A program made the position numbers and the translations under genes. Shown here in pieces: positions 49,339-62,140 of a DNA stretch of 64,000 nucleotides (position 1 is its first letter; each line of letters starts with the position of its first letter). The notes beneath the pieces were generated by a model. It made no database searches and was not told the DNA's origin. It saw only the letters and a program-made list of their open reading frames with translations. This DNA comes from Comamonas testosteroni (GTDB lineage Bacteria; Pseudomonadota; Gammaproteobacteria; Burkholderiales; Burkholderiaceae_C): the NCBI GenBank assembly GCA_008727115.1, contig CP044131.1:1736001-1800000 (forward strand), read 5' to 3'.

Positions 49339-49344
49339 TGGTTA

Positions 49345-49372
49345 CCCCCTGAGGCGCTTCGCGCCTTCCCCC
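49345..49372. repeat. REP-like intergenic element, copy 1
   Basis: CCCCCTGAGGCGCTTCGCGC followed by CTTCCCCC, just after the metQ stop. The same core occurs at 61204-61231 after another ABC binding-protein gene. It contains the hairpin GGCGC/GCGCC. Confidence 0.7.
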
Positions 49373-51602: not shown

Positions 51603-53123
51603 TTAACGCTGCAAGGCTTGCAGGGCAGGCAGATCGCTGTCCGTGTTGTGGGAGGGCGAAGCTGCTGCGCCACTCGCCAGCAAGGCCTTGGCGATTTTGC
51701 CGTGGTCGGTCTTGCTGCTGGCGGTTTGCGGCCATTGCGCGCAAACCCACCACTGGCGCGGGACCTTGAAGGCTTCCGTGCGCTCTCGCAGCCATTGATT
51801 GAGCTGCAGTGCGCTTGGGGGCTGAGCAGCGTGCTCTTCTTTCCATTGCACCACGGCATGCACCTGCATGCCGCGCAGGGTGTCTGCCTGCCCGTGCAGC
51901 GATACCTGGGCAATGGCGGGGTGGCTGGCCAGCAGGTTTTCCACCTCTTCGGGAAACAGGTTTTTGCCCTGGGTGACGATCATGCGGCTCTGGCGCCCGG
52001 CCAGGCACAGCATTCCGCGCTCGTCGATATGGCCCATGTCACGCACGGACAACCAGTCGCCATCGCGCAGCACGGCCGTGGGGTCGTGGGCGTCGCCCAC
52101 ATAGTCCATGAAAAGCATGGGGCTGCGGATGTAGATCAGCCCGTCATCGCCATGGCTGCTGGCGGGGTCGGCCAGGCTGTGATCGGTGCTGGGGCGAATG
52201 TCGATGTCCACATTGCTGAAGGGCCTGCTCACGGCCTGCGGGCTGCTGTGCTCATCGGCCTCCATCCAGGCAACGAAACTGGCCTCGGAGGCACCATAGA
52301 ACTCGATGATGCGCGCCTTGGGGAACAGGGCGCGCAGTGCGGGCGTGTGAGCGCGCATCCAGCGTGCGCCGCTGATGGTGATCAGCTCCACGGCCTCCAT
52401 CGGCGGCAGCTTGCGGTGCTGGGCCCATTGCAGCATCAGCAGCAACTGGCTGGGCACGGCCACAAGGCACGGCGTGTGACACTGCGCCAAGGTGCTCAGG
52501 CAGCGCGAGGCCGAGAACTTCTCTTGCATGACCGCGCCGCAGCCATACCAGATGCCTTGCATGGCTCCGAACAGAAACAGCGAGTGCGAGATGCGCCCCG
52601 GTGCCAGCGTGCGCTGGGCGACCACGGGGCCGAAGTCCTGCAGGCCTACGCGAAAGCTCTCCGTCCACGACCGGTGGTGGCGTTTGAAGCCCTTGGGCAT
52701 GCCGGTGCTGCCCGAGGTAAAGCCGGTGTAGAAGGCCGCAGTTGGCTGGGCTTCTTTGAGGAGGCTGGGTTCGGTGGGTAGCCAGCTTTCGATGCGCTGG
52801 CGCACATCGGGCTGCCAGTCTGGGTCCGCCACGGCGGCGCAGCGGCCGCTGTGGATGACGGCCAGAAAGTCCACCAGCCGCTCCAGTGTGGATTGGCTGG
52901 CATCCAGCAGCACCATCTCCGGGGTGCATTGCGCGACCAGGCGAGCAGAGCGCTGCAGCACTTCACGGTGCAATTGGGCAAACGTCCAGCTCTGCGATTC
53001 GTTCTCAAGCGCGATGACCTGGGGGCGGTGTTCGGCCCAGTGGGCCAGAGGCCCGTGCACCAGCTGCCACAGGCCTTGCAGGGGGACATGAGAGGGGGGC
53101 GTGGCAGCGGACTCTAGACTCAT
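51603..53123 (-). CDS. AMP-dependent acyl-CoA ligase, YhfT-like
   Basis: A 506-residue ANL-family adenylate-forming enzyme. ATG 53123 overlaps the bioY stop (ATGA). Motifs: FTSGSTGMPKGFK (P-loop), EFYGASEASFVAW, DGDWLSVRDMGHID and the catalytic Lys region SSKTDHGKIAK. It activates a carboxylic acid as acyl-AMP and probably makes acyl-CoA. The gene order with bioY and a thiolase mirrors the Bacillus yhfT-yhfS-bioYB cluster, suggesting a substrate linked to biotin or its pimeloyl precursor; this is inference. Confidence 0.88.
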   Translation of the reverse strand: MSLESAATPPSHVPLQGLWQLVHGPLAHWAEHRPQVIALENESQSWTFAQLHREVLQRSARLVAQCTPEMVLLDASQSTLERLVDFLAVIHSGRCAAVADPDWQPDVRQRIESWLPTEPSLLKEAQPTAAFYTGFTSGSTGMPKGFKRHHRSWTESFRVGLQDFGPVVAQRTLAPGRISHSLFLFGAMQGIWYGCGAVMQEKFSASRCLSTLAQCHTPCLVAVPSQLLLMLQWAQHRKLPPMEAVELITISGARWMRAHTPALRALFPKARIIEFYGASEASFVAWMEADEHSSPQAVSRPFSNVDIDIRPSTDHSLADPASSHGDDGLIYIRSPMLFMDYVGDAHDPTAVLRDGDWLSVRDMGHIDERGMLCLAGRQSRMIVTQGKNLFPEEVENLLASHPAIAQVSLHGQADTLRGMQVHAVVQWKEEHAAQPPSALQLNQWLRERTEAFKVPRQWWVCAQWPQTASSKTDHGKIAKALLASGAAASPSHNTDSDLPALQALQR

Positions 53124-53716
53124 GCCCGGCCACCAAAGCGCCAGTCCGGCATGCCGCGGGCCACGGTGTGAACAATGATGGCGCACAGCACGCACTTGAT
53201 GAAGTCACCGGGCACAAAGGCCAGGGTCACGGTAAAGGCCTGGCTCAGGCTCATCTTGGCCAGCAGCATCAGGCCCATGACGCCGAAGGCGTGCAGGCAC
53301 AGCAGACCGCCGATGAGCGAGGCCGTAAAAGCACTGAGGGCCGTGCGGCGCGGCGTGCTCTGGGGCAGGGCCGCCATGATGGCGCCGATGATGCAGGCGG
53401 CCAGGGCATAGCCCACCAGATAGCCGGCAGACGGCGCCAGAAAGACGCCAATGCCGCCGCGCCCGCCCGACAGCAAAGGCAGGCCTACTGCGACCGCAGC
53501 CAGGAACAGCAGCATGGACTGCAGACCGCGCCAGGGCCCGAGCATGACGCCGGCCAGCATCACGCCCAGCGACTGGATGGTGATGGGCACGCCCAGGGGC
53601 AGGTCGATCTTGGGGATCAGGCCCATCACGGCCATGAGCGCTGCAAACAGCGAAACCTGGGCCATGGAGCGTGCGCCGCCGCGCGATACGGTGTGAGAGG
53701 GAGTGGTCATCATCAA
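53120..53716 (-). CDS. bioY: Biotin transporter substrate-capture component BioY
   Basis: A 198-residue membrane protein with about six helices. The typical motifs PITIQSLGVMLAGVMLGPWRG, SAGYLVGY and VPGDFIKCVLC are visible. It is the S-component that binds biotin for the BioMN energy-coupling module. AGGAG precedes the ATG. Its stop overlaps the ligase start. Confidence 0.95.
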   Translation of the reverse strand: MMMTTPSHTVSRGGARSMAQVSLFAALMAVMGLIPKIDLPLGVPITIQSLGVMLAGVMLGPWRGLQSMLLFLAAVAVGLPLLSGGRGGIGVFLAPSAGYLVGYALAACIIGAIMAALPQSTPRRTALSAFTASLIGGLLCLHAFGVMGLMLLAKMSLSQAFTVTLAFVPGDFIKCVLCAIIVHTVARGMPDWRFGGRA

Positions 53717-53721
53717 ATCTC

Positions 53722-54315
53722 CTAAAAACCCAGTCTGGCCCAGAGGGCGTCGGCCACACGGCGCGTGGCCTGCAGCATGTGAATCGTCAGTGGTGCAATC
53801 AGGCGCAGGCCGCCACCTTTGCCGGTGCGCAGGCGGTGCGCTTCATCGAGCTTCTTCCATTGCACAAAAAAATGCTCGGTAAAGCGCAGCATCAGTGCAA
53901 TCTGCATGGCCACGCGCTCGGTGGGCATGCCCAGTCGCGCCAGCGGGGCCAGCAGCCATTCGAGCACCTCGACCAGATCGCTGGGGCGGGTGGTCACGGT
54001 CAGGGCAATCCCCAGCGTGGAGGCACAGATCAGGCGCAGGCTGCTCACCGCTGCCAGAGCATGGTTGCCCATGAAGACATGAAAACCCGCCACCAGCAGT
54101 GCGGCAATGATCACCGAGCGCATCAGGCGACGGGCAATGCGTGTGGCCTGGCCCAGCGAGAACCAGAGAATGGCGCAAAGCAGCCCGCAGCCCGCCAGCA
54201 GCACGGGGCTGCTAGTCAAAAAAAGCAGCGTTCCTAGCGCTGCCAGCAGGGCCAGCTTGAGGCCGGCCGGCCAGCGGTGCAGCCAGGTGGGCAGCTCGCT
54301 GTAGAGGCTACCCAT
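53722..54315 (-). CDS. bioN: Biotin ECF transporter T-component BioN
   Basis: A 197-residue membrane protein of the CbiQ/BioN family. The late motifs TTRPSDLVEVLEWLLAP and LMLRFTEHFFVQW followed by a basic coupling segment are typical. It couples BioM ATP hydrolysis to BioY. It overlaps bioM by 8 bp. Confidence 0.93.
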   Translation of the reverse strand: MGSLYSELPTWLHRWPAGLKLALLAALGTLLFLTSSPVLLAGCGLLCAILWFSLGQATRIARRLMRSVIIAALLVAGFHVFMGNHALAAVSSLRLICASTLGIALTVTTRPSDLVEVLEWLLAPLARLGMPTERVAMQIALMLRFTEHFFVQWKKLDEAHRLRTGKGGGLRLIAPLTIHMLQATRRVADALWARLGF

Positions 54316-55030
54316 GGCACACCCCTGCTGTGCTCTGTTGTGTCAGCTGCTGCTTCACCGTCTCTTCATAGGCATGGCAAACCTCACGGCCAGCACCGTC
54401 GCCGAGCAAGCGGCCTTGCTCCAGCCAGATCACACGCTCAAAGTCGCGCACATGGTCCAGCACATGGGTGGAGACCAGTATTTGCTGAGGAGCGGCGGCG
54501 ATGTCTTGCGCCAGTCGCGCCTGGCCAGGCAGGTCCAGGCTGGCAAAGGGCTCATCGAGCAGCAGCAGTTGAGGTGCGGCAATCAGCAGCGACAACCAGC
54601 ACACCTGCTGGCGCTGACCCTGGCTGAGGCTGCCTACGGCGCGCTCTGCCCAGTGCTCCAGCCCGCGCGCGGCCAGCAGCTCGCGAGCCTTGGCTCTGGC
54701 TTGCTGCTTGTTCAGGCCCTGAGGATGCAGCCCCAGTGCCAGCTCTTCTTCGACGGTGGGAAAAATGATCTGGTCGTCGGGGTTCTGAAACATCAGCCCG
54801 ACCAGGCCCGGCTTGTTTTGGCGAGCCTCCAGCAAGGGCGAGCCATCGATCAGAACTTGGCCGGACTGCGGCTGCTCCAGCCCGCACAGCAGTCGAAACA
54901 GGCTGGACTTGCCTGCGCCGTTGTTGCCAATAACGCCAATGCGCTTTTCGGTCAGCTGGAGGCTGAGACCGTCAAAAACCTGTGTCTGACCGCGCTGCAG
55001 CTTGATATCGACCAACTGCACGCCGCTCAT
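54308..55030 (-). CDS. bioM: Biotin ECF transporter ATPase BioM
   Basis: A 240-residue ABC ATPase. Walker A GNNGAGKSS, MFQNPDDQIIFPTVEEE (typical of CbiO/BioM), signature LSQGQRQQVCW and Walker B LLLLDEPFASLD. It is the first gene of the bioM-bioN-bioY-ligase-thiolase-nitroreductase operon. Confidence 0.95.
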   Translation of the reverse strand: MSGVQLVDIKLQRGQTQVFDGLSLQLTEKRIGVIGNNGAGKSSLFRLLCGLEQPQSGQVLIDGSPLLEARQNKPGLVGLMFQNPDDQIIFPTVEEELALGLHPQGLNKQQARAKARELLAARGLEHWAERAVGSLSQGQRQQVCWLSLLIAAPQLLLLDEPFASLDLPGQARLAQDIAAAPQQILVSTHVLDHVRDFERVIWLEQGRLLGDGAGREVCHAYEETVKQQLTQQSTAGVCHG

Positions 55031-55877
55031 GCCAAAGCTCCTTCAATGTGGAGACGGGCGAGCGAAGAGGCTGCAAAAGCAACAGGAGCGGAAGAGGCGG
55101 CTGGAGCGGCAAGAGGGGACATACGGGAAAACCTGAAACCTTGATCCGGACTGCCAAACGAGCCGGACTGCATTGGTGGCGGATTCTAGCGCCGCCAAAT
55201 TGCTTTCAAAAGCCTGCAATCTGATCTCTTTTTATATGAAATCTGCATAAGAGATGACTTCTTCACCGGCAGTGCTTGGAAGCCGGCGCGGAGCCGGTAT
55301 TTGGCGGCAGTTAAGGGGCAGTTGCCTGTGCGTTGTGGAGGAAAGTTTTTTCATGCTCGCTTTTTGCCCTCTTCAGCGGCTAACTTCGCTGAAGCTACGG
55401 CGGAAGTGCTTTGCAGATGAATGGGGTTGTGCGTGGATGGCGGTGTTTTGGCGTCACTTGGATGCGAAAACTGGGGAAGTATGCGGATGCATTGCGAGCG
55501 AGAGGCTGAAAATACGCTCTGAGGCCATGTTTTTGGGCGATTTGAGGGTTTTTTCGAGCCGGAAAAATTTTTGAAAAAGATGCGGATAGATGTGGATGAG
55601 AGGCGCATGTGCAGTTAAGCCCATGAATACATGGCATTGCAGAGCCAGAGGCCGTCTCTTGCGGATATCCAAAAGTACAAAAACAGGAGCTGTTTGCGCT
55701 TATGGAAATTCAGTTTCAAAGGCTTTTGGTGCTGAAATCAAGGTATGACTTGCGCTAAAAGCTCCTTTTTTGAGAGTACTGGCTTTCTTTTGCCCTCTCT
55801 TGTATTGATGCACTCATATATATAGAGAGGACATGGAGCGCCTCTTGAGAGGCTTCCCCGTTGGGTTAAGATCATGC
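55031..55877. other. Long intergenic region before the TPP riboswitch
   Basis: About 850 bp. It contains the bioM promoter region, the inverted repeat at 55686-55771, and weak overlapping frames on both strands (for example 55254-55574 on plus) without start signals or recognisable motifs. I see no credible gene. Confidence 0.5.
55686..55771. repeat. Inverted repeat ending in a T run
   Basis: AGGAGCTGTTTGCGC (55686-55700) is inverted as GCGCTAAAAGCTCCT (55752-55766), followed by TTTTT. It may be a terminator or a copy of an intergenic palindrome family. Confidence 0.5.
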
Positions 55878-55879
55878 GG

Positions 55880-55945
55880 CGCTCCGGGGTGCACAAGCGT
55901 GCTGAGATCGATACCCGCGAACTTGACCCGGTTCATACCGGCGGA
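55880..55945 (+). ncRNA. TPP (thiamine pyrophosphate) riboswitch, THI element
   Basis: The conserved THI-box parts occur in order: CGGGGTGC, CTGAGAT (the pyrimidine-sensing loop, 55902-55908), ACCCGCGAAC, TTGACCCGG and TTCATACCGGCGG. This is the leader of the luxE-like operon 92 bp upstream of its start. TPP binding usually turns expression off. Confidence 0.92.
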
Positions 55946-55998
55946 AGAAGAGCTTGCAAACTGACCGCAGGGCAGAGACTTGTCGCATGGTCAGTGAG

Positions 55999-56030
55999 CC
56001 TTCGGAGCATGATGACCCCGCTCTCGAAGG
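55999..56030 (+). promoter_or_regulatory. Expression-platform hairpin hiding the ribosome-binding site
   Basis: CCTTCGGAGC (55999-56008) pairs with GCTC-t-CGAAGG (56020-56030) with one bulged T. The 3' arm includes most of the GAAGGA Shine-Dalgarno of the gene starting at 56037. This fits translational repression when TPP is bound. Confidence 0.6.
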
Positions 56031-56036
56031 AATTTC

Positions 56037-57143
56037 ATGGATAAGGCCGCTTCTCTGGTCGCCGATCTGCTTGCTTTCATCGCTCTGGATGAGGGCTCTG
56101 ACGACCAGTTCAACTCACTCGCTCTGCGCCTTTTCGCCTACCAGTACGAAAACAACGCACCGTTTCGCAGCTTTTGCCAGCGACGCGGCGCTACGCTGCG
56201 CAATGTGAAAAGCTGGCGCGATATCCCGGCAGTCCCTATCGATGCCTTCAAGGCCATGGAGCTGCGCAGCGAGCCAGCCCATGCGGACGAGCGCGTATTC
56301 ATGACCAGCGGCACGACGGGCCAGGCCAAGGGAATGGCAGCGCGGGGGCGTCATTTTCATCCTCAGCTTGAGGTCTATGACCTGTCCATGAAGCGTTATT
56401 TCTCCAAGCGCTTCATGCAGGGCGTGGAGCGCATGCCCATGGGCATTCTGTTCCCGGATGAGCAGGCCATGCCCAACTCCTCGCTGGCTCACTATCTGGC
56501 GCTGGCCAGGTCCGAGTTCGGTAGCGAAGGCAGCCGCTACTACCTGAACTCCGAAGGGCTGGACATGCCCGCTTTGTGCGCTGCGCTGGAAGAGTCAGAG
56601 CGCAGCGGCCAACCCTTTGCGCTGCTGGGCGCAAGCTTCAGCCTGGTTCATGTCATGGATGCTTTGCGTGCCCAGGGCCGCAGCTTTCGCCTGCCTGAAG
56701 GCAGCCGCATCCTCGACACCGGCGGCTACAAGGGGCAGTCGCGCGAGCTGCCGCTCGAAGAGTTCTATGCAGAGCTGTCGCAGTTGCTGGGTGTGCCGCG
56801 CCGCCTGTGCATCAATATGTATGGCATGACGGAGCTGAGTACCCAGTTCTATGACGATGGCAATGTCACGCTGCCGGCAGTCAAGTCCGGGCCGCACTGG
56901 ATTCGCTCGCGTCTGGTCGAGCCCATCACCGGCCGGGACGTGGCAGCTGGCGAGCGCGGTATTCTGGTGCATTGTGATCTGGCCAACTACAACGCAGTCA
57001 CCACGATCCTGACCGAGGACGTGGGCCTGTGGGCGGGCGCTCAGGAGTCTGACGGCTTTTTGCTGCTGGGCCGTGCCGAAGGCGCTGCGGCCAAGGGCTG
57101 CTCGCTGGCGGTGGAAGAATTTGTGAAGGCTGCCAGCGCATGA
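56037..57143 (+). CDS. LuxE-like acyl-protein synthetase
   Basis: A 368-residue ANL-type enzyme close in length to LuxE. Residues 89-99 are the AMP-binding loop MTSGTTGQAKG; DTGGYKGQSREL and NMYGMTELSTQFY follow. Cys355 near the C-terminus (KGCSLAVEEF) sits where LuxE carries its acyl-acceptor Cys. It should activate a carboxylic acid with ATP and hold it as a thioester. It is the first gene after the TPP riboswitch and overlaps the LuxC-like gene by 4 bp. Confidence 0.88.
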   Translation: MDKAASLVADLLAFIALDEGSDDQFNSLALRLFAYQYENNAPFRSFCQRRGATLRNVKSWRDIPAVPIDAFKAMELRSEPAHADERVFMTSGTTGQAKGMAARGRHFHPQLEVYDLSMKRYFSKRFMQGVERMPMGILFPDEQAMPNSSLAHYLALARSEFGSEGSRYYLNSEGLDMPALCAALEESERSGQPFALLGASFSLVHVMDALRAQGRSFRLPEGSRILDTGGYKGQSRELPLEEFYAELSQLLGVPRRLCINMYGMTELSTQFYDDGNVTLPAVKSGPHWIRSRLVEPITGRDVAAGERGILVHCDLANYNAVTTILTEDVGLWAGAQESDGFLLLGRAEGAAAKGCSLAVEEFVKAASA

Positions 57144-58621
57144 GCCAGAAGCTTGCGGTCGATGCCGGCACGGTTCAGCGTATCAAGGCGGGCTATCTGC
57201 CGGGCTTGAGCGACGATGAGGTGCAGTGGCAGGTGCTGCCCTTTGAGGCGCGCGATGGCCTGAGGCTGGAGGTGTGCGTGCCCATGCTGACGGCACCGCA
57301 GATGCTGGCGCTGGCCGAGCGCGTGCGCAAGGCGGCTGATACCCATCTGCGCTCCATGCCGGTGGCCGAAATCATTGAGGCCATTGACCGCGCCATGGCT
57401 CGGCTGCTTGATCGCAACGACGTCTATCGGCAATGGGCCGAGCGCTGGCTGCCCGTGGTCAGCGGCTATGACGCCGACATGGTGCGGCTGGGGCTGACGG
57501 GTTTTTTCAAGACTTTCAGGGCAGCACAGCTCAAGCGCTTTGTGGCTGAAGATTTTTCCAACCCGGCCGTGCTCGACAGCTTTCAGCCTGCCGCCAAGGG
57601 CGGTGCCGTGCGTGCCTTTGGCCCTGATCTGCTGGTACACAGCTGGGCTGGCAATGTGCCAGCGCTTTCGCTGTGGAGTCTGGTCTGCGGCCTGCTGGTC
57701 AAGGCCCCCGCGATGGGCAAGCTGGCCAGTGCCGAGCCTTTGTTTGCGGGCTGGTTTGCACGATTGCTGGCCGAGGTGCATCCACCGCTGGCCGATTGCC
57801 TGGCCGTGGTGTGGTGGCGCGGTGCTGGCGGTGAGGAAGCCGATGCGCTCTATGGCCAGGCCGATACGGTGCTGGCCTATGGCGGCAACCCGACGCTGGA
57901 CGCGCTGCGCCGCCGCCTTCCTGTGACCACACGCTTTTTGCCCCATGGTCACAAGCTGGGCTTTGGTCTGATTGCGGCGCAGGCGCTGGACACACTCAAG
58001 GCTCCGGCCATGGCAAGACTGGCCGCCTGGGATGTGATGCGCTATGACCAGCAAGGCTGCTACTCGCCCCATGTGTTTTATGTGCAGCGCGGCGGGGCCG
58101 TGTCACCGCGTGCGTTTGCCGACTATCTGGCGGCCGAGCTGGCCAATCTGCAACGTCGCTTTGCACGCCGCGAGCTGGACCTGGAAGAGGGGGCTGCCGT
58201 CGCCCGCTGGCAGCAGAGCATGGAATGGAGCGCCGAGCCGCAGCAACTGCTGGGCCCTGTGGATGCGGCCTGGAGCGTGGCTTACAGCGATGGTCTGCAG
58301 CCCCTGATGCCAACGGCGCTGCAGCGCACGATTGCCGTAGTGGCCGTAGACAGCCTGGACGACGTGCTGCCGGTGGCGGCTGCCCAACGTGAATATCTGC
58401 AGACTGCGGGCATTGCGGCCAGCCCCGAGGAGCTGTACCGCCTGGCCGGGCTACTGGGCGCCGCTGGCGTCACGCGTATCAGTGCCATTGGCTCCATGAG
58501 CATGCCCGAGGCGGGCTGGCACCATGACGGGCGCTTCAATCTGCTTGATCTGGTGCGCATGACGGAGATCGAGCAGTCGGCAGAACTCGCTGCTCAGCCG
58601 CTGGCCGCTTATGCAGACTGA
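57140..58621 (+). CDS. LuxC-like acyl-CoA/acyl-protein reductase
   Basis: A 493-residue aldehyde-dehydrogenase-fold reductase. Cys307 in RYDQQGCYSPHVFYV is the catalytic Cys seen in LuxC proteins. It should accept an acyl group from the LuxE-like protein and reduce it with NADPH to the aldehyde. No luciferase genes (luxAB) are nearby, so bioluminescence is excluded. Overlap on both sides (4 bp upstream, 11 bp downstream) indicates tight coupling. Confidence 0.88.
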   Translation: MSQKLAVDAGTVQRIKAGYLPGLSDDEVQWQVLPFEARDGLRLEVCVPMLTAPQMLALAERVRKAADTHLRSMPVAEIIEAIDRAMARLLDRNDVYRQWAERWLPVVSGYDADMVRLGLTGFFKTFRAAQLKRFVAEDFSNPAVLDSFQPAAKGGAVRAFGPDLLVHSWAGNVPALSLWSLVCGLLVKAPAMGKLASAEPLFAGWFARLLAEVHPPLADCLAVVWWRGAGGEEADALYGQADTVLAYGGNPTLDALRRRLPVTTRFLPHGHKLGFGLIAAQALDTLKAPAMARLAAWDVMRYDQQGCYSPHVFYVQRGGAVSPRAFADYLAAELANLQRRFARRELDLEEGAAVARWQQSMEWSAEPQQLLGPVDAAWSVAYSDGLQPLMPTALQRTIAVVAVDSLDDVLPVAAAQREYLQTAGIAASPEELYRLAGLLGAAGVTRISAIGSMSMPEAGWHHDGRFNLLDLVRMTEIEQSAELAAQPLAAYAD

Positions 58622-59384
58622 GGGAGTGGACACAGCCGTGGCATTCATGGAGTTCAGGCAGGCCCGATTCAGCTATCCGGGACGAGCAGCTGTGGTGGAC
58701 GGTGTGGACTGGCAGGTCGGAGCCGGAGAGTTTCACTGCCTGCTGGGGCGCAGTGGCTGCGGCAAGACCACGCTGCTCAAGCTGGCGGCAGGTCTACTCA
58801 GGCCTCAGTCGGGCCATGTCTTGCTGGGCGGAAGTGAGCTGGCAAAACCCGGGCCACAACTGGGCTTTATGTTCCAGGCACCGACTCTGCTGGACTGGCA
58901 TTCGGTGCTTGATAACGTGCTGCTGCCGGTGTCGCTGCAGCGCAAGCCCACGCCGCAGGATCAGCGCATTGCCATGCAGTGGCTGGAGCAACTGGGGCTT
59001 GCCGACCATGCGCAGCATTACCCCAGACAGCTTTCCGGCGGCCAGCAAAGCCGCGTGGCACTGGCTCGGGCCTTGATTCTCGAGCCCGCGCTGCTGCTGC
59101 TTGATGAGCCGTTTGCCGCGCTGGATGCCATCACGCGTGCCGAGCTGCAGGACGATCTGCGGCGCACCTGCCAGCGCCATGGCACGACGGTGCTGTTTGT
59201 GACCCATGACATCAATGAGGCCGTCTATTTGGGCGACCGCATTGCGCTCATGCATGGTGGTCGCATTGTGGATGACTGGACGATCAAGCTGCCGCAGCCG
59301 CGTACCCAGGACATGCGCCACGGCACCGTGTTCAACGATTACTGTGCCCGCGTGCGTGCCTCCATGGACAGAGGTGTGGCATGA
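58611..59384 (+). CDS. ABC transporter ATPase (SsuB/ThiZ-like)
   Basis: A 257-residue nitrate/sulfonate/taurine-type ATPase. Walker A LLGRSGCGKTT, signature LSGGQQSRVALARAL, Walker B LLLLDEPFAALD and the H-loop VTHDINEAV are intact. ATG 58611 is inside the luxC-like 3' end. It powers the importer with the next two genes; under a TPP riboswitch such transporters carry thiamine precursors (ThiXYZ). Confidence 0.9.
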   Translation: MQTEGVDTAVAFMEFRQARFSYPGRAAVVDGVDWQVGAGEFHCLLGRSGCGKTTLLKLAAGLLRPQSGHVLLGGSELAKPGPQLGFMFQAPTLLDWHSVLDNVLLPVSLQRKPTPQDQRIAMQWLEQLGLADHAQHYPRQLSGGQQSRVALARALILEPALLLLDEPFAALDAITRAELQDDLRRTCQRHGTTVLFVTHDINEAVYLGDRIALMHGGRIVDDWTIKLPQPRTQDMRHGTVFNDYCARVRASMDRGVA

Positions 59385-60169
59385 ATCTCCTGCTGACCAA
59401 GTCGCGCCTGCTGTCTGCTTTGCTTTTGATAGCTGTACTCGCAATATGGGAGCTGGCTACAAGGCAATTTGGCTTGTCGTCTTTGGTGCTACCTGCACTG
59501 TCGGCGGTGGCGGAGTCTCTGTGGTCGGGCCTGCGCTCTGGCTACTTCTGGCCGCACCTGTGGGCCAGCCTGAAGGCTTTGCTGCTGGGCCTGCTGATCG
59601 GCAGTGCCGTGGGGCTTGTCAGCGGCATGGCCTTGGCGGAGTTTCCCTTGCTGGAGCGCGTGCTCAAGCCCTATGTGGTGGTCAGCCAGGTGGTGCCCAA
59701 GCTGGCCTTGGCTCCCTTGTTTGTGCTGTGGTTTGGGTTTGGCCTGCTGCCCACGGTGCTGATCACGGCACTGATCTGCTTTTTTCCGCTGATGGAAAAC
59801 ACGCTGACCGGTCTGCGCCAGGTCGATGCCCAGCGCTTGCAGCTGTTTCAGATGCTGGGCGCCACTAGGCTGCAGACCTTGCTACGACTGAAGCTGCCGA
59901 CAGGCCTGCCTGCCATTTTTGCGGGATTGCGCGTGGCCGTGGTGCTGGCGCTGGTTGGTGTGGTGGTGGCCGAGTTCATGGGCGCAAGCCAGGGCCTGGG
60001 TGCCGTGGTCATCGCGGCGCAGGGAATGATGGACACCACGCTGATGTTTGCAGCGCTGGTGCTGATCGCCATGCTGGGACTGATGCTTTATCAGGCCTGT
60101 CTATTGCTGGAGCGCCGCTTGCTGCGTGCGCATTACCTTTCAACTCCGCAGTCCAGGCGCAGCAGCTGA
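59381..60169 (+). CDS. ABC transporter permease (SsuC/ThiX-like)
   Basis: A 262-residue permease with about six helices. The EAA-like coupling loop reads LFQMLGATRLQTLLRLKLPT. The N-terminal coding DNA includes the family repeat TTTTGATAGCTG at 59424-59435. It overlaps the ATPase gene by 4 bp. Confidence 0.9.
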   Translation: MNLLLTKSRLLSALLLIAVLAIWELATRQFGLSSLVLPALSAVAESLWSGLRSGYFWPHLWASLKALLLGLLIGSAVGLVSGMALAEFPLLERVLKPYVVVSQVVPKLALAPLFVLWFGFGLLPTVLITALICFFPLMENTLTGLRQVDAQRLQLFQMLGATRLQTLLRLKLPTGLPAIFAGLRVAVVLALVGVVVAEFMGASQGLGAVVIAAQGMMDTTLMFAALVLIAMLGLMLYQACLLLERRLLRAHYLSTPQSRRSS

Positions 60170-60204
60170 GTGCGCCACGACTGCATCTTTCCGGGTCATT
60201 TGTC

Positions 60205-61203
60205 ATGCAAGCAAGTTTTCAGACTTTGTCTATCTCCCGTCGCAGCCTGCTCGGTGCCTGTGCAGGCCTGAGCGGTCTCGCCATGGCTGGCACCAGCATG
60301 GCAACGCCCGTGCAGGGCAGGATTCGCCTGGCGGGCTGGAGCAAGCCCATCAGCGAGATCACCAACTTGCTGGTCGAGCCGGAAAAAGGCTTTTTCAAGT
60401 CACAAGGGGTGGAGCTGACCTACCTGCCGGGTGCGGGCGGTGGCGATGCGATTCGCAACCTTCTCAGCGGTCAGGCCGATGTAGCCTTTACCGATCCCGG
60501 CTCCTTTTTCATGGCATTGGACAAGGGTGAAAAGCTGGTAGCCATCTACGACATCTATCCGCAGAACGTATTCAATGTGGTCTCGCTCAAGTCTTCGGGC
60601 ATTCACAAGCCTGCAGACCTCAAGGGCAAGAAAATTGGTGTCTACAGCCTTGCCAGCGGAACGCGCCAGAACCTGTTGGTGATGCTGCATCAGGCCGGAC
60701 TCAAGGAGTCCGATGTGACGATTGTGGTGACCGGGCTGCTGAACTTCGCTCCCCTGATGCAGGGTCAGGTCGATGCCACGGCGGCCACCGACACCGGGCT
60801 GGCTGTGGGCTTGCGCAAGGGGATTGGCGAGGTCGATGTGATGCAGGTCAGCGACCACCTCAATATGTCCAGCGACATGTTTGTGGTGCGTGAAGAAGTA
60901 TTCCAGCAAAAGAAGGAACTGCTCAAGGCCTTCCTCAAGGGCTACCGCGATAGCGCGGCCTGGATGATGGCGAACCCCGAGGATGCTTCGGTGCTGGCCA
61001 GCAAATACGCGATTGATGGCACGCGTCGCGACATCAATCTGGATGTGATTCGACTGCGCAATGCGGCTTCCATGCCTGCGCTCAAGGGCCAGCCGCTGGG
61101 CAGCTTCGATATGGCTGCGCTGCAAAAGGGGGCAGATGCCTATCGGGCACTGGGCATGGTGCAGCGGCAGATCAAGGTGGCGGATGTGGTGAGGCCGCTG
61201 TAA
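60205..61203 (+). CDS. Periplasmic binding protein, NMT1/THI5-like
   Basis: A 332-residue protein with a twin-arginine-type leader (SRRSLLGACAGLSG). RIRLAGWSKPISEITNLLVE, KGFFKSQGVELTYLPGAGGGD and SGQADVAFTDPGS match the NMT1/THI5 fold, which is used for thiamine pyrimidines (ThiY), sulfonates and related small compounds. The riboswitch favours a thiamine-related ligand. The stop is followed directly by a REP-like element. Confidence 0.88.
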   Translation: MQASFQTLSISRRSLLGACAGLSGLAMAGTSMATPVQGRIRLAGWSKPISEITNLLVEPEKGFFKSQGVELTYLPGAGGGDAIRNLLSGQADVAFTDPGSFFMALDKGEKLVAIYDIYPQNVFNVVSLKSSGIHKPADLKGKKIGVYSLASGTRQNLLVMLHQAGLKESDVTIVVTGLLNFAPLMQGQVDATAATDTGLAVGLRKGIGEVDVMQVSDHLNMSSDMFVVREEVFQQKKELLKAFLKGYRDSAAWMMANPEDASVLASKYAIDGTRRDINLDVIRLRNAASMPALKGQPLGSFDMAALQKGADAYRALGMVQRQIKVADVVRPL

Positions 61204-61231
61204 CCCCCTGAGGCGCTTTGCGCCTTCCCCC
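61204..61231. repeat. REP-like intergenic element, copy 2
   Basis: CCCCCTGAGGCGCTTTGCGC followed by CTTCCCCC, starting at the base after the binding-protein stop. One T/C difference from the copy at 49345. The rest of the 140-bp gap has further small hairpins. Confidence 0.7.
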
Positions 61232-61342
61232 TCTCTCGCTTTGCTTCGCAATGCGGGAGGGTGACGATGCCTTCGCCGCGAGGCGGCTCTTGCTCGGCAT
61301 CTCTGAGAGGGGAGTGCTAATTTTTGAGTGGAAATGGTGAAT

Positions 61343-62140
61343 ATGAGTCAGTCTTCTTCCATGGGCTTGCGCGGCAAGGTGGTGCTGGTAACGGGGGGCA
61401 GCCGCGGCATTGGTGCGGCCATTGCCCTGGCGTTTGCGCGTGAGGGGGCGACGGTGGTCATCAACTACCTGTCCAATGACGAGGCCGCGGTCAAGGCCGT
61501 GGAGGCCTGTCTGGCCGCAGGCAAGGAGTCAGGCGGTGATGCCTGGGCCGTCAGGGCCGACGTAGGCTCCTCCGATGCAGTGCAGCGCATGGTGGAGAGC
61601 ATCGTGCTTGAGGTAGGCGGCATTGATATCGTGGTCAATAACGCCTTCAAGCCTTATGCCTTCGATCCAGAGCAGCGCAAGCGTTTTGACGATTTGCAGT
61701 GGCAGGACTATCAAAGCCAGTTTGATGGTGCGGTGGGCGCTGCCTTCAATGTCTGCCGTGCGGTGCTGCCAATCATGAGCCAGCGTGCGCGGGGCAGCAT
61801 CGTCAACATCGTCAGCAACCTGGTGGAGCACCCGGTCGTGCCTTATCACGACTACACCACCTCCAAAGGGGCGCTGGTGGCCTTTAGCCGCAACCTGGCC
61901 AGCGAGTTGGGGCCGGTGGGCATTCGCGTCAACTGCGTGGCCCCAGGGCTGGTCTATCCCACGCAGGGAACACAGGGCAGCAAGGAGTCATTCAGAGAGT
62001 CGCTGATGGCGGCCACGCCTTTGAGGCGTCTGGCAAGGCCCGAGGATGTGGCGGGGCCTGTGCTGTTTCTGGCTTCCGAGCTCGGCAGCTTTGTGACCGG
62101 GCAGGTGCTGATGGTCGACGGTGGCTTGGTGATGCGATAA
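61343..62140 (+). CDS. SDR-family oxidoreductase (FabG-like)
   Basis: A 265-residue short-chain dehydrogenase. The nucleotide motif TGGSRGIG, NNAF, and a catalytic Tyr-x3-Lys in YHDYTTSKGAL are present. An in-frame ATG at 61334 and GTG at 61328 also exist; 61343 (MSQSSS) is closest to the conserved start. It is separated from the binding-protein gene by 140 bp but is on the same strand and could still be in the TPP-controlled transcript. It may reduce the aldehyde made by LuxC-like protein; this is inference. Confidence 0.85.
   Translation: MSQSSSMGLRGKVVLVTGGSRGIGAAIALAFAREGATVVINYLSNDEAAVKAVEACLAAGKESGGDAWAVRADVGSSDAVQRMVESIVLEVGGIDIVVNNAFKPYAFDPEQRKRFDDLQWQDYQSQFDGAVGAAFNVCRAVLPIMSQRARGSIVNIVSNLVEHPVVPYHDYTTSKGALVAFSRNLASELGPVGIRVNCVAPGLVYPTQGTQGSKESFRESLMAATPLRRLARPEDVAGPVLFLASELGSFVTGQVLMVDGGLVMR

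Follow-up and report, generated by a model that had tools for sequence, protein, structure and literature searches.

Comparison with described systems

The ThiXYZ-YlmB-TenA pathway of Bacillus halodurans salvages a thiamine precursor, formylaminopyrimidine (FAMP), by hydrolysis of an amide and an amine. To our knowledge, the pyrimidine salvage routes recover only amide, amine, or alcohol forms. In the LuxE family, a carboxylate is activated with ATP and kept as an acyl group on a cysteine, from which LuxC accepts it for reduction to an aldehyde. In a 64-kb stretch of Comamonas testosteroni DNA (CP044131.1, positions 1,736,001 to 1,800,000; the whole stretch is called the window), taken from a 4.14 Mb single-contig genome, an operon was found that brings these two kinds of genes together behind a thiamine pyrophosphate (TPP) riboswitch. 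Six genes follow on one strand, i.e., a LuxE-like ligase, a LuxC-like reductase, the ATPase and permease of an ATP-binding cassette (ABC) importer, an NMT1/THI5-type binding protein, and a short-chain dehydrogenase/reductase (SDR).

As in the B. halodurans pathway, an ABC importer under TPP control, with a binding protein of NMT1/THI5 type, would feed the pyrimidine branch, and the closest fold of this protein belongs to that pathway. Unlike FAMP salvage, it would activate and reduce an acid. Neither the YlmB amidohydrolase nor TenA is among the six operon genes (they were not searched genome-wide). The light-organ fatty acid reductase LuxC/LuxE (7xc6) has the same two families in one operon with aligned cysteines, whereas the proteins of the present operon fall far under the curated cut-offs, form a separate LuxE clade, and have a TPP leader and an SDR added. 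No luxA, luxB, or luxD is annotated beside the annotated plasmid copies. A third related system is the uptake of pyrimidine vitamers through CytX or ThiV by thiC-less bacteria, e.g., Pelagibacterales with thiV (available part of PMC10881298). Like CytX/ThiV, the operon would permit thiamine synthesis in bacteria without thiC but with thiG and thiE, whereas CytX/ThiV is a single permease with no acid-reducing enzymes. In the available part of PMC12637900, thiC-less Limnohabitans is explained by ThiV, ThiY, CytX, and TenA. The word "lux" occurs 0 times in the main text of a TPP-regulon survey, as far as that text was available (PMC3766115). In the literature joining thiamine or TPP with LuxE/LuxC or acyl-enzyme terms, from which subscription journals were mostly missing, the module was not described.

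The best explanation, to which we give a probability of roughly three in four, is that the operon serves a TPP-controlled salvage of the pyrimidine half of thiamine, in which an acid form would be reduced to 4-amino-5-hydroxymethyl-2-methylpyrimidine (HMP) for ThiD. The ABC importer would take up the pyrimidine as a carboxylic acid, of which 4-amino-2-methylpyrimidine-5-carboxylate is the simplest candidate. LuxE would activate the acid with ATP and hold the acyl group on its own cysteine, LuxC would accept the group and reduce it to the aldehyde, and the SDR would reduce the aldehyde to HMP. ThiD would then phosphorylate HMP, and ThiE would couple the pyrimidine to the thiazole. The ATP-using acid activation of the LuxE family and the riboswitch control suit an anabolic route. 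This explanation is built on features that were directly seen, i.e., the gene families and their order, the TPP leaders, the cysteines, the exchange of transporters, the links to thiD, thiE, thiO, and thiG, and a gene-content pattern of operon for thiC, and from them we infer the ligand and the order and direction of the reactions. The module is filed here as a TPP-controlled precursor salvage with familiar control and purpose and new chemistry.

Thiamine genes of the carriers

Loci and genomes are given by our numbers (L and G). In 18 Ramlibacter-type loci, thiD was located directly upstream of LuxE, and the leader was seen in front in 17 of them (L149 is cut upstream; L059 and L136 are one genome). 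Over 121 loci from overlapping sets, thiD, thiO, thiG, or thiE was found within the fetched stretch in 48 and thiC in none; the count covers these five genes, not thiM or tenA. In MOLA814, where thiC is absent, thiO-thiG-thiE directly continue the operon on its own strand.

The thiC gene was searched in 45 carriers, i.e., 21 of the genus, 22 of the family, G520, and G717. It was present in 38 and absent in seven: G108 (86% complete), G170, G189, G275 (MOLA814), G279, G287, and G318 (Limnohabitans B9-3). All seven kept thiD, thiG, and thiE, and thiG was present in 45/45 carriers. Six thiC-less genomes without the operon were checked alongside; five showed no convincing thiD, thiG, or thiE match, and G061 had all three. 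In the family sample, thiC was found in 193 of 299 genomes (188 over the cut-off) and was absent in 106. Among the 93 thiC-less genomes tested for thiG, the gene was kept by 7/7 carriers versus 5/86 non-carriers (Fisher p 8e-8, not corrected for kinship). The operon was present in 7/12 thiC-less, thiG-positive genomes versus 18/193 genomes with thiC (p 9e-5; thiG was tested in only part of the 193).

Taken together, the thiamine gene contents and positions indicate that the module can feed ThiD/ThiE and stand in for ThiC, i.e., supply HMP. It stands in for ThiG in no genome tested. The pyrimidine branch is strongly supported as the target by these gene contents, and the identity of the acid and its chemistry are what we infer beyond that. 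The initial annotation had proposed thiamine control and a salvage by acid reduction plus SDR, and the genome context supports both. Among its proposed substrates, the pyrimidine 5-carboxylate agrees with this context, whereas thiazole acetic acid and thiamine acetic acid are not supported as the main substrate. Since the thiC-less carriers keep thiG and thiE, the operon would not be a source of thiazole or whole thiamine.

Importers, substrates, and alternative explanations

By LuxE search of 72,556 plasmid records, 51 matches were obtained; 11 were examined, and nine were of the operon kind. The full gene set was found on plasmids of Azospirillum lipoferum, A. ramasamyi, and Priestia megaterium. 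The plasmids of Pantoea dispersa and Pantoea sp. BRR-3P have LuxE-LuxC-SDR with no importer in the locus. In plasmids of Lactiplantibacillus plantarum and Levilactobacillus brevis, an NCS2 nucleobase permease precedes LuxE-LuxC-SDR; it is nearest to the xanthine permease subfamily, below the cut-off of that subfamily. The run of Niallia taxi comprises two TPP leaders, ThiW, an NCS2 permease, LuxE, LuxC, and SDR, with the tandem riboswitches at L189 5778-6074. The LuxE, LuxC, and SDR matches on a Pseudomonas silvicola plasmid (L190 8001-11252) are each split into several pieces, so this copy looks broken, although its TPP leader has a score of 63.8 bits; no importer was found in the locus. The Rfam TPP match before the unit was above the gathering threshold in 8/9 plasmid loci, and the ninth, of Priestia, scored 49.0 bits (E 1.4e-8). 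A chromosomal locus of G717 (L179; same class, other family) has LuxE-LuxC-SDR and a TPP leader of 66.6 bits with no importer alongside. The importer varies, i.e., ABC, NCS2 nucleobase permease, or none in the locus, and the constant core across two phyla (Pseudomonadota and Bacillota) is the TPP leader, LuxE, LuxC, and SDR. The SDR accompanies LuxE-LuxC also in loci without the ABC genes and therefore most likely belongs to the chemistry.

The small Lactobacillaceae plasmids (L186 1390-6321 and L187 2947-7878) have the order TPP, NCS2 permease, LuxE, LuxC, SDR. The protein accessions are identical across the two genera, which suggests recent transfer. It is reasonably likely that the module is a widespread, horizontally moving vitamin B1 salvage of Pseudomonadota, Bacillota, and their plasmids that reactivates oxidised pyrimidine by carboxylic acid reduction.

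The genomic evidence fixes the pyrimidine branch and not the molecule. HMP could be the product of a substrate other than the simple 5-carboxylate, i.e., a conjugate or another pyrimidine acid, with a different enzyme order or an extra carrier, and no more can be read from the NCS2 permeases than a possibly nucleobase-like ligand in two lineages. We nevertheless regard this variant as unlikely. By chemical reasoning, the 5-carboxylate is the simplest acid that two reduction steps convert directly into HMP, and its occurrence as a thiamine metabolite in the urine of rats has been reported (Neal and Pearson 1964, cited in the available part of PMC7780320).

CytX, a putative HMP permease, was found in 0/7 thiC-less carriers and in 4/5 thiC-less, thiG-positive non-carriers, the fifth being G190 (87% complete). 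The 12 thiC-less, thiG-positive genomes comprise seven with the operon, four with CytX, one with neither, and none with both. Some carriers with thiC may have CytX too, and the window genome does; further TPP sites were found there upstream of thiC and of the CytX-like permease. Because of this TPP-linked thiC and CytX-like permease, the operon probably imports something other than HMP. The site before the CytX-like permease is weak (35.8 bits; L176:2791-4059, G000:C1 near 2347582-2349049), the permease scores 237.7 bits versus a strict cut-off of 309.85, and thiD, thiG, and thiE are in the same 12-kb stretch.

These data also bear on the idea that the ABC importer brings HMP itself, and that LuxE, LuxC, and SDR merely recycle HMP oxidised inside the cell. 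The loci of Pantoea and G717, in which the three enzymes and a TPP leader occur with no importer, would fit such recycling. However, the window genome already has a putative riboswitch-linked HMP importer, and the enzymes and the ABC importer stand together in 69/80 loci, which makes this idea improbable.

Under the TPP leader, the binding protein, permease, and ATPase make up a putative importer of ThiXYZ type. The AlphaFold2 model of the binding protein (47 sequences, mean pLDDT 88.6) had its best PDB fold match in 3ix1, the FAMP-binding protein of Bacillus halodurans (TM 0.76/0.83, 17% identity). In a profile search of PDB sequences, 3qsl, 4nmy, and THI5 were on top, and 3ix1 was placed lower (E 3.4e-6). 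The model supports, but does not prove, a thiamine-related ligand.

Salvage of a thiazole acid or of whole oxidised thiamine, i.e., thiazole acetic acid or thiamine acetic acid, would agree equally with the enzymes and the riboswitch control, but it is very improbable in view of thiG in all 45 carriers, of thiG, thiE, and thiD in the seven without thiC, and of thiD inside the operon (thiM was not searched for). In Niallia, moreover, the run behind the TPP leaders includes a ThiW gene along with LuxE and LuxC, so a separate importer appears to serve the thiazole half there.

Several points weigh against the salvage of a pyrimidine acid. Most carriers (38/45) have thiC as well, and in the family sample the operon was not associated with thiC loss as such (8/106 versus 18/193, p 0.67), because most tested thiC-less genomes also lost thiG; the link between operon and thiC loss is confined to thiG-keeping genomes. 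The seven thiC-less carriers are few and come from six genera, and the p values are not kinship-corrected. Gene absence comes partly from drafts (G108 being 86% complete), and 13 of the 106 thiC-less genomes were outside the thiG test. The CytX matches (at least 200 bits) are all below the strict cut-off of that family. The binding protein shares only 17% identity with ThiY, and the folds of a thiamin-binding protein (4nmy) and SsuA score almost equally, with Thi5 after SsuA. The riboswitch of the window is 0.2 bit below the gathering threshold (54.1 versus 54.3 bits). The ligand and the enzyme activities are predicted from genomic evidence.

If the salvage of a pyrimidine acid is true, this acid would be an unmeasured B1 vitamer needed by thiC-less Limnohabitans sp. 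B9-3 and MOLA814, and the operon could explain how some bacteria live without their own synthesis of the pyrimidine building block. It would be an alternative to the ThiV/ThiY/CytX/TenA account of thiC-less Limnohabitans; CytX was not found in G318, the sole Limnohabitans-type genome tested. An acid-recovering route would fill a gap in the B1 cycle, LuxE/LuxC relatives would gain a role beyond light production, and annotations such as "long-chain fatty acid--CoA ligase" would be corrected. The explanation predicts a specific nutrient, which can be tested by growth assay.

LuxE and LuxC proteins

Cys355 of the LuxE-like protein is invariant among 38 aligned sequences and Cys307 of the LuxC-like protein among 16. 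In the solved LuxE/LuxC complex 7xc6, these residues, which the initial annotation had named, have their aligned counterparts in the KGCS and QQAC cysteines. In annotated plasmid copies, LuxE is labelled as "long-chain fatty acid--CoA ligase" or "acyl-CoA synthetase" and LuxC as "acyl-CoA reductase". The family names and such labels would favour fatty aldehyde production that adjoins a thiamine-precursor importer by chance, but this is hardly credible because the NCBIfam cut-offs are widely missed, i.e., NF052244 for true LuxE (long-chain-fatty-acid--protein ligase; 82.9 versus 550 bits) and NF052251 for true LuxC (long-chain fatty-acyl reductase; 74.4 versus 750 bits), the LuxE clade is apart from a light-organ LuxE, and loci that lack an importer still have the TPP leader.

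A tree was made of 26 LuxE proteins, i.e., 22 of the operon kind, one light-organ LuxE, and three others of the family. The 22 grouped together (support 100/99), and a long branch separates them from the other four. Because the outgroup has very long branches and the Bacillota rows deviate in composition, the depth and root of this tree are unsure. The closest named relatives of the window protein are Comamonadaceae, e.g., Acidovorax. Transfer between classes is suggested by the placement of Pantoea and G717 together with Azospirillum and Methylobacterium (99/99).

Two distant LuxE-LuxC pairs (L089 and L090), one from the genus group and one from the order, have LuxC frames of 901 and 814 aa; they were rejected as operon relatives, with no ABC-gene or SDR match and a position outside the LuxE clade. 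A Priestia megaterium plasmid (L192 2684-8616) encodes another LuxE kind with 24% identity, which adjoins genes of a carrier protein, a fatty acyl-AMP ligase, a cysteine desulfurase, and an iron-sulfur scaffold.

Conservation of the operon and its leader

LuxC of the operon kind was found in 21 of 37 genus-group genomes (G000-G036). The genus-level search covered 61 genomes and gave 23 matches, of which G026 and G057 (28-29% identity) are another kind. In the family, 26 of 299 genomes had LuxC at E 1e-30, one of them being G153, which is 55% complete and has its match, at 38%, on a contig of 3.5 kb. From the genus and family carriers, some genus carriers being left out, 37 loci (L052-L088) were taken. 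All six genes were present in 35 of them, L055 and L069 being cut by the contig end; the permease frame of L080 is short. By a pattern scan with the LuxE alignment in a collection of 84,980 species, 365 relatives were obtained and the best 80 were kept; this set overlaps with the 37 loci, as several genomes were reached by both routes. The six genes stood in order in 69 of these best 80. The ATPase alone was absent in three, i.e., the Alcaligenaceae metagenome-assembled genomes L117, L118, and L125, and the other eight were cut at a contig end. In the three Alcaligenaceae loci the permease begins about 10 bases after LuxC, and the importer may borrow another ATPase.

The TPP leader was found before the unit in 77/80 loci. 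Our covariance model R1 matched 74 (E up to 0.0055); in L106, L111, and L113 it had no match at E 0.01, and sub-gathering Rfam matches were found at the right place (38.3, 37.6, and 33.6 bits). In L104, L147, and L149 the leader region is cut upstream by the contig end. R1 also matched 37/37 of the loci L052-L088 (E up to 2.1e-4). The model was built from 18 leaders, 17 of which are from the 80 loci and match by construction. A simple THI-element pattern missed the leaders of Limnohabitans, Malikia, MOLA814, and similar loci, where the covariance model gave weak matches. The Rfam model was run on five leaders with weak R1 matches, and all were above gathering, i.e., L179 (66.6 bits), L138 (60.4), L109 (60.2), L096 (58.0), and L129 (57.8); L188, the Priestia plasmid locus, was below it (49.0). 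Tandem TPP model matches before the unit were seen in L131 (8690-8919) and L066 (11142-11371). A second match downstream of the operon, just 5' of thiO, was seen in L141 (15790-15886), L142 (13276-13374), and L143 (15798-15896).

The initial annotation had let its proposal depend on conserved gene linkage, which indeed holds in several classes and in two phyla. In a sample of 398 genomes of the phylum, the LuxE profile matched five, two of which do not belong to the family, so the module is patchy in distribution.

Riboswitch leader and gene arrangement of the window

The features of the operon are listed in Table 1. The families and the riboswitch at the head of the run were named correctly in the initial annotation, as Pfam and RF00059 matches agree with it. 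Its term "tightly overlapping" suits the first four genes, with overlaps of 4, 11, and 4 bases, and not the last two, which follow gaps of 35 and 124 bases. As it had also said, luxA/luxB had no match among the families found for the scanned window proteins (luxAB was not searched genome-wide).

Table 1. Coordinates of the riboswitch leader and the six operon genes in the window
Feature	Position	Strand	Evidence
TPP riboswitch aptamer (THI element)	55875..55966	+	RF00059, 54.1 bits, E 6.4e-10; match over the full length (1-105 of the 105 model positions)
Probable expression platform	55967..56036	+	CGGAGC element, then a stretch able to pair with the ribosome-binding site
LuxE-like acid-activating ligase (acyl-protein synthetase family)	56037..57143	+	PF04443, 72.2 bits (Pfam cut-off 24.9); presumed catalytic Cys355
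LuxC-like reductase (acyl-thioester to aldehyde)	57140..58621	+	PF05893, 266.9 bits (Pfam cut-off 21); presumed catalytic Cys307
ABC importer ATPase (ThiZ-like role)	58611..59384	+	PF00005, 111.5 bits
ABC importer permease (ThiX-like role)	59381..60169	+	PF00528, 95.6 bits
Presumed periplasmic binding protein, NMT1/THI5 superfamily (ThiY-like role)	60205..61203	+	PF09084, 172.8 bits
SDR, proposed aldehyde-to-alcohol step	61328..62140	+	PF13561, 196.7 bits; start may be ATG near 61343 (alignment with relatives)

In the Rfam scan of the entire window at the gathering threshold, RF00059 was not listed, the site being just short of it; the site was found on rescan of a short stretch with an E-value threshold. 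Since the leaders of relatives exceed gathering, the predicted TPP riboswitch of the window is taken as real. The control by this riboswitch suggests that the salvage route would run at low TPP, and TPP would presumably lower expression.

GCTCCG, located at the aptamer's 5' end, is the complement of the CGGAGC element. Of the 82 leaders that matched a strict pattern, 76 had CGGAGC at most 130 nt 3' of the aptamer core, versus 6.6% in mononucleotide shuffles. Four leaders were folded, and a hairpin over the ribosome-binding site was predicted in those of the window (z -1.7) and L052 (z -0.8); z was -0.2 and 0.1 for the remaining two, and the folding energies were not significantly below those of shuffles. 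Covariation was looked for in the expression platform and none was found, nearly all leaders being invariant there. The leader looks like translational control, without support from covariation.

Upstream of the operon, on the opposite strand, genes of a biotin-type energy-coupling factor (ECF) importer (BioY, CbiQ-like, and ABC ATPase) were found at 53120-55030. The spacers around the SDR gene were checked for repeats within the window, and the only match was of 32 bases, i.e., 61200-61231 in the spacer before the SDR with 94% match to 49341-49372.

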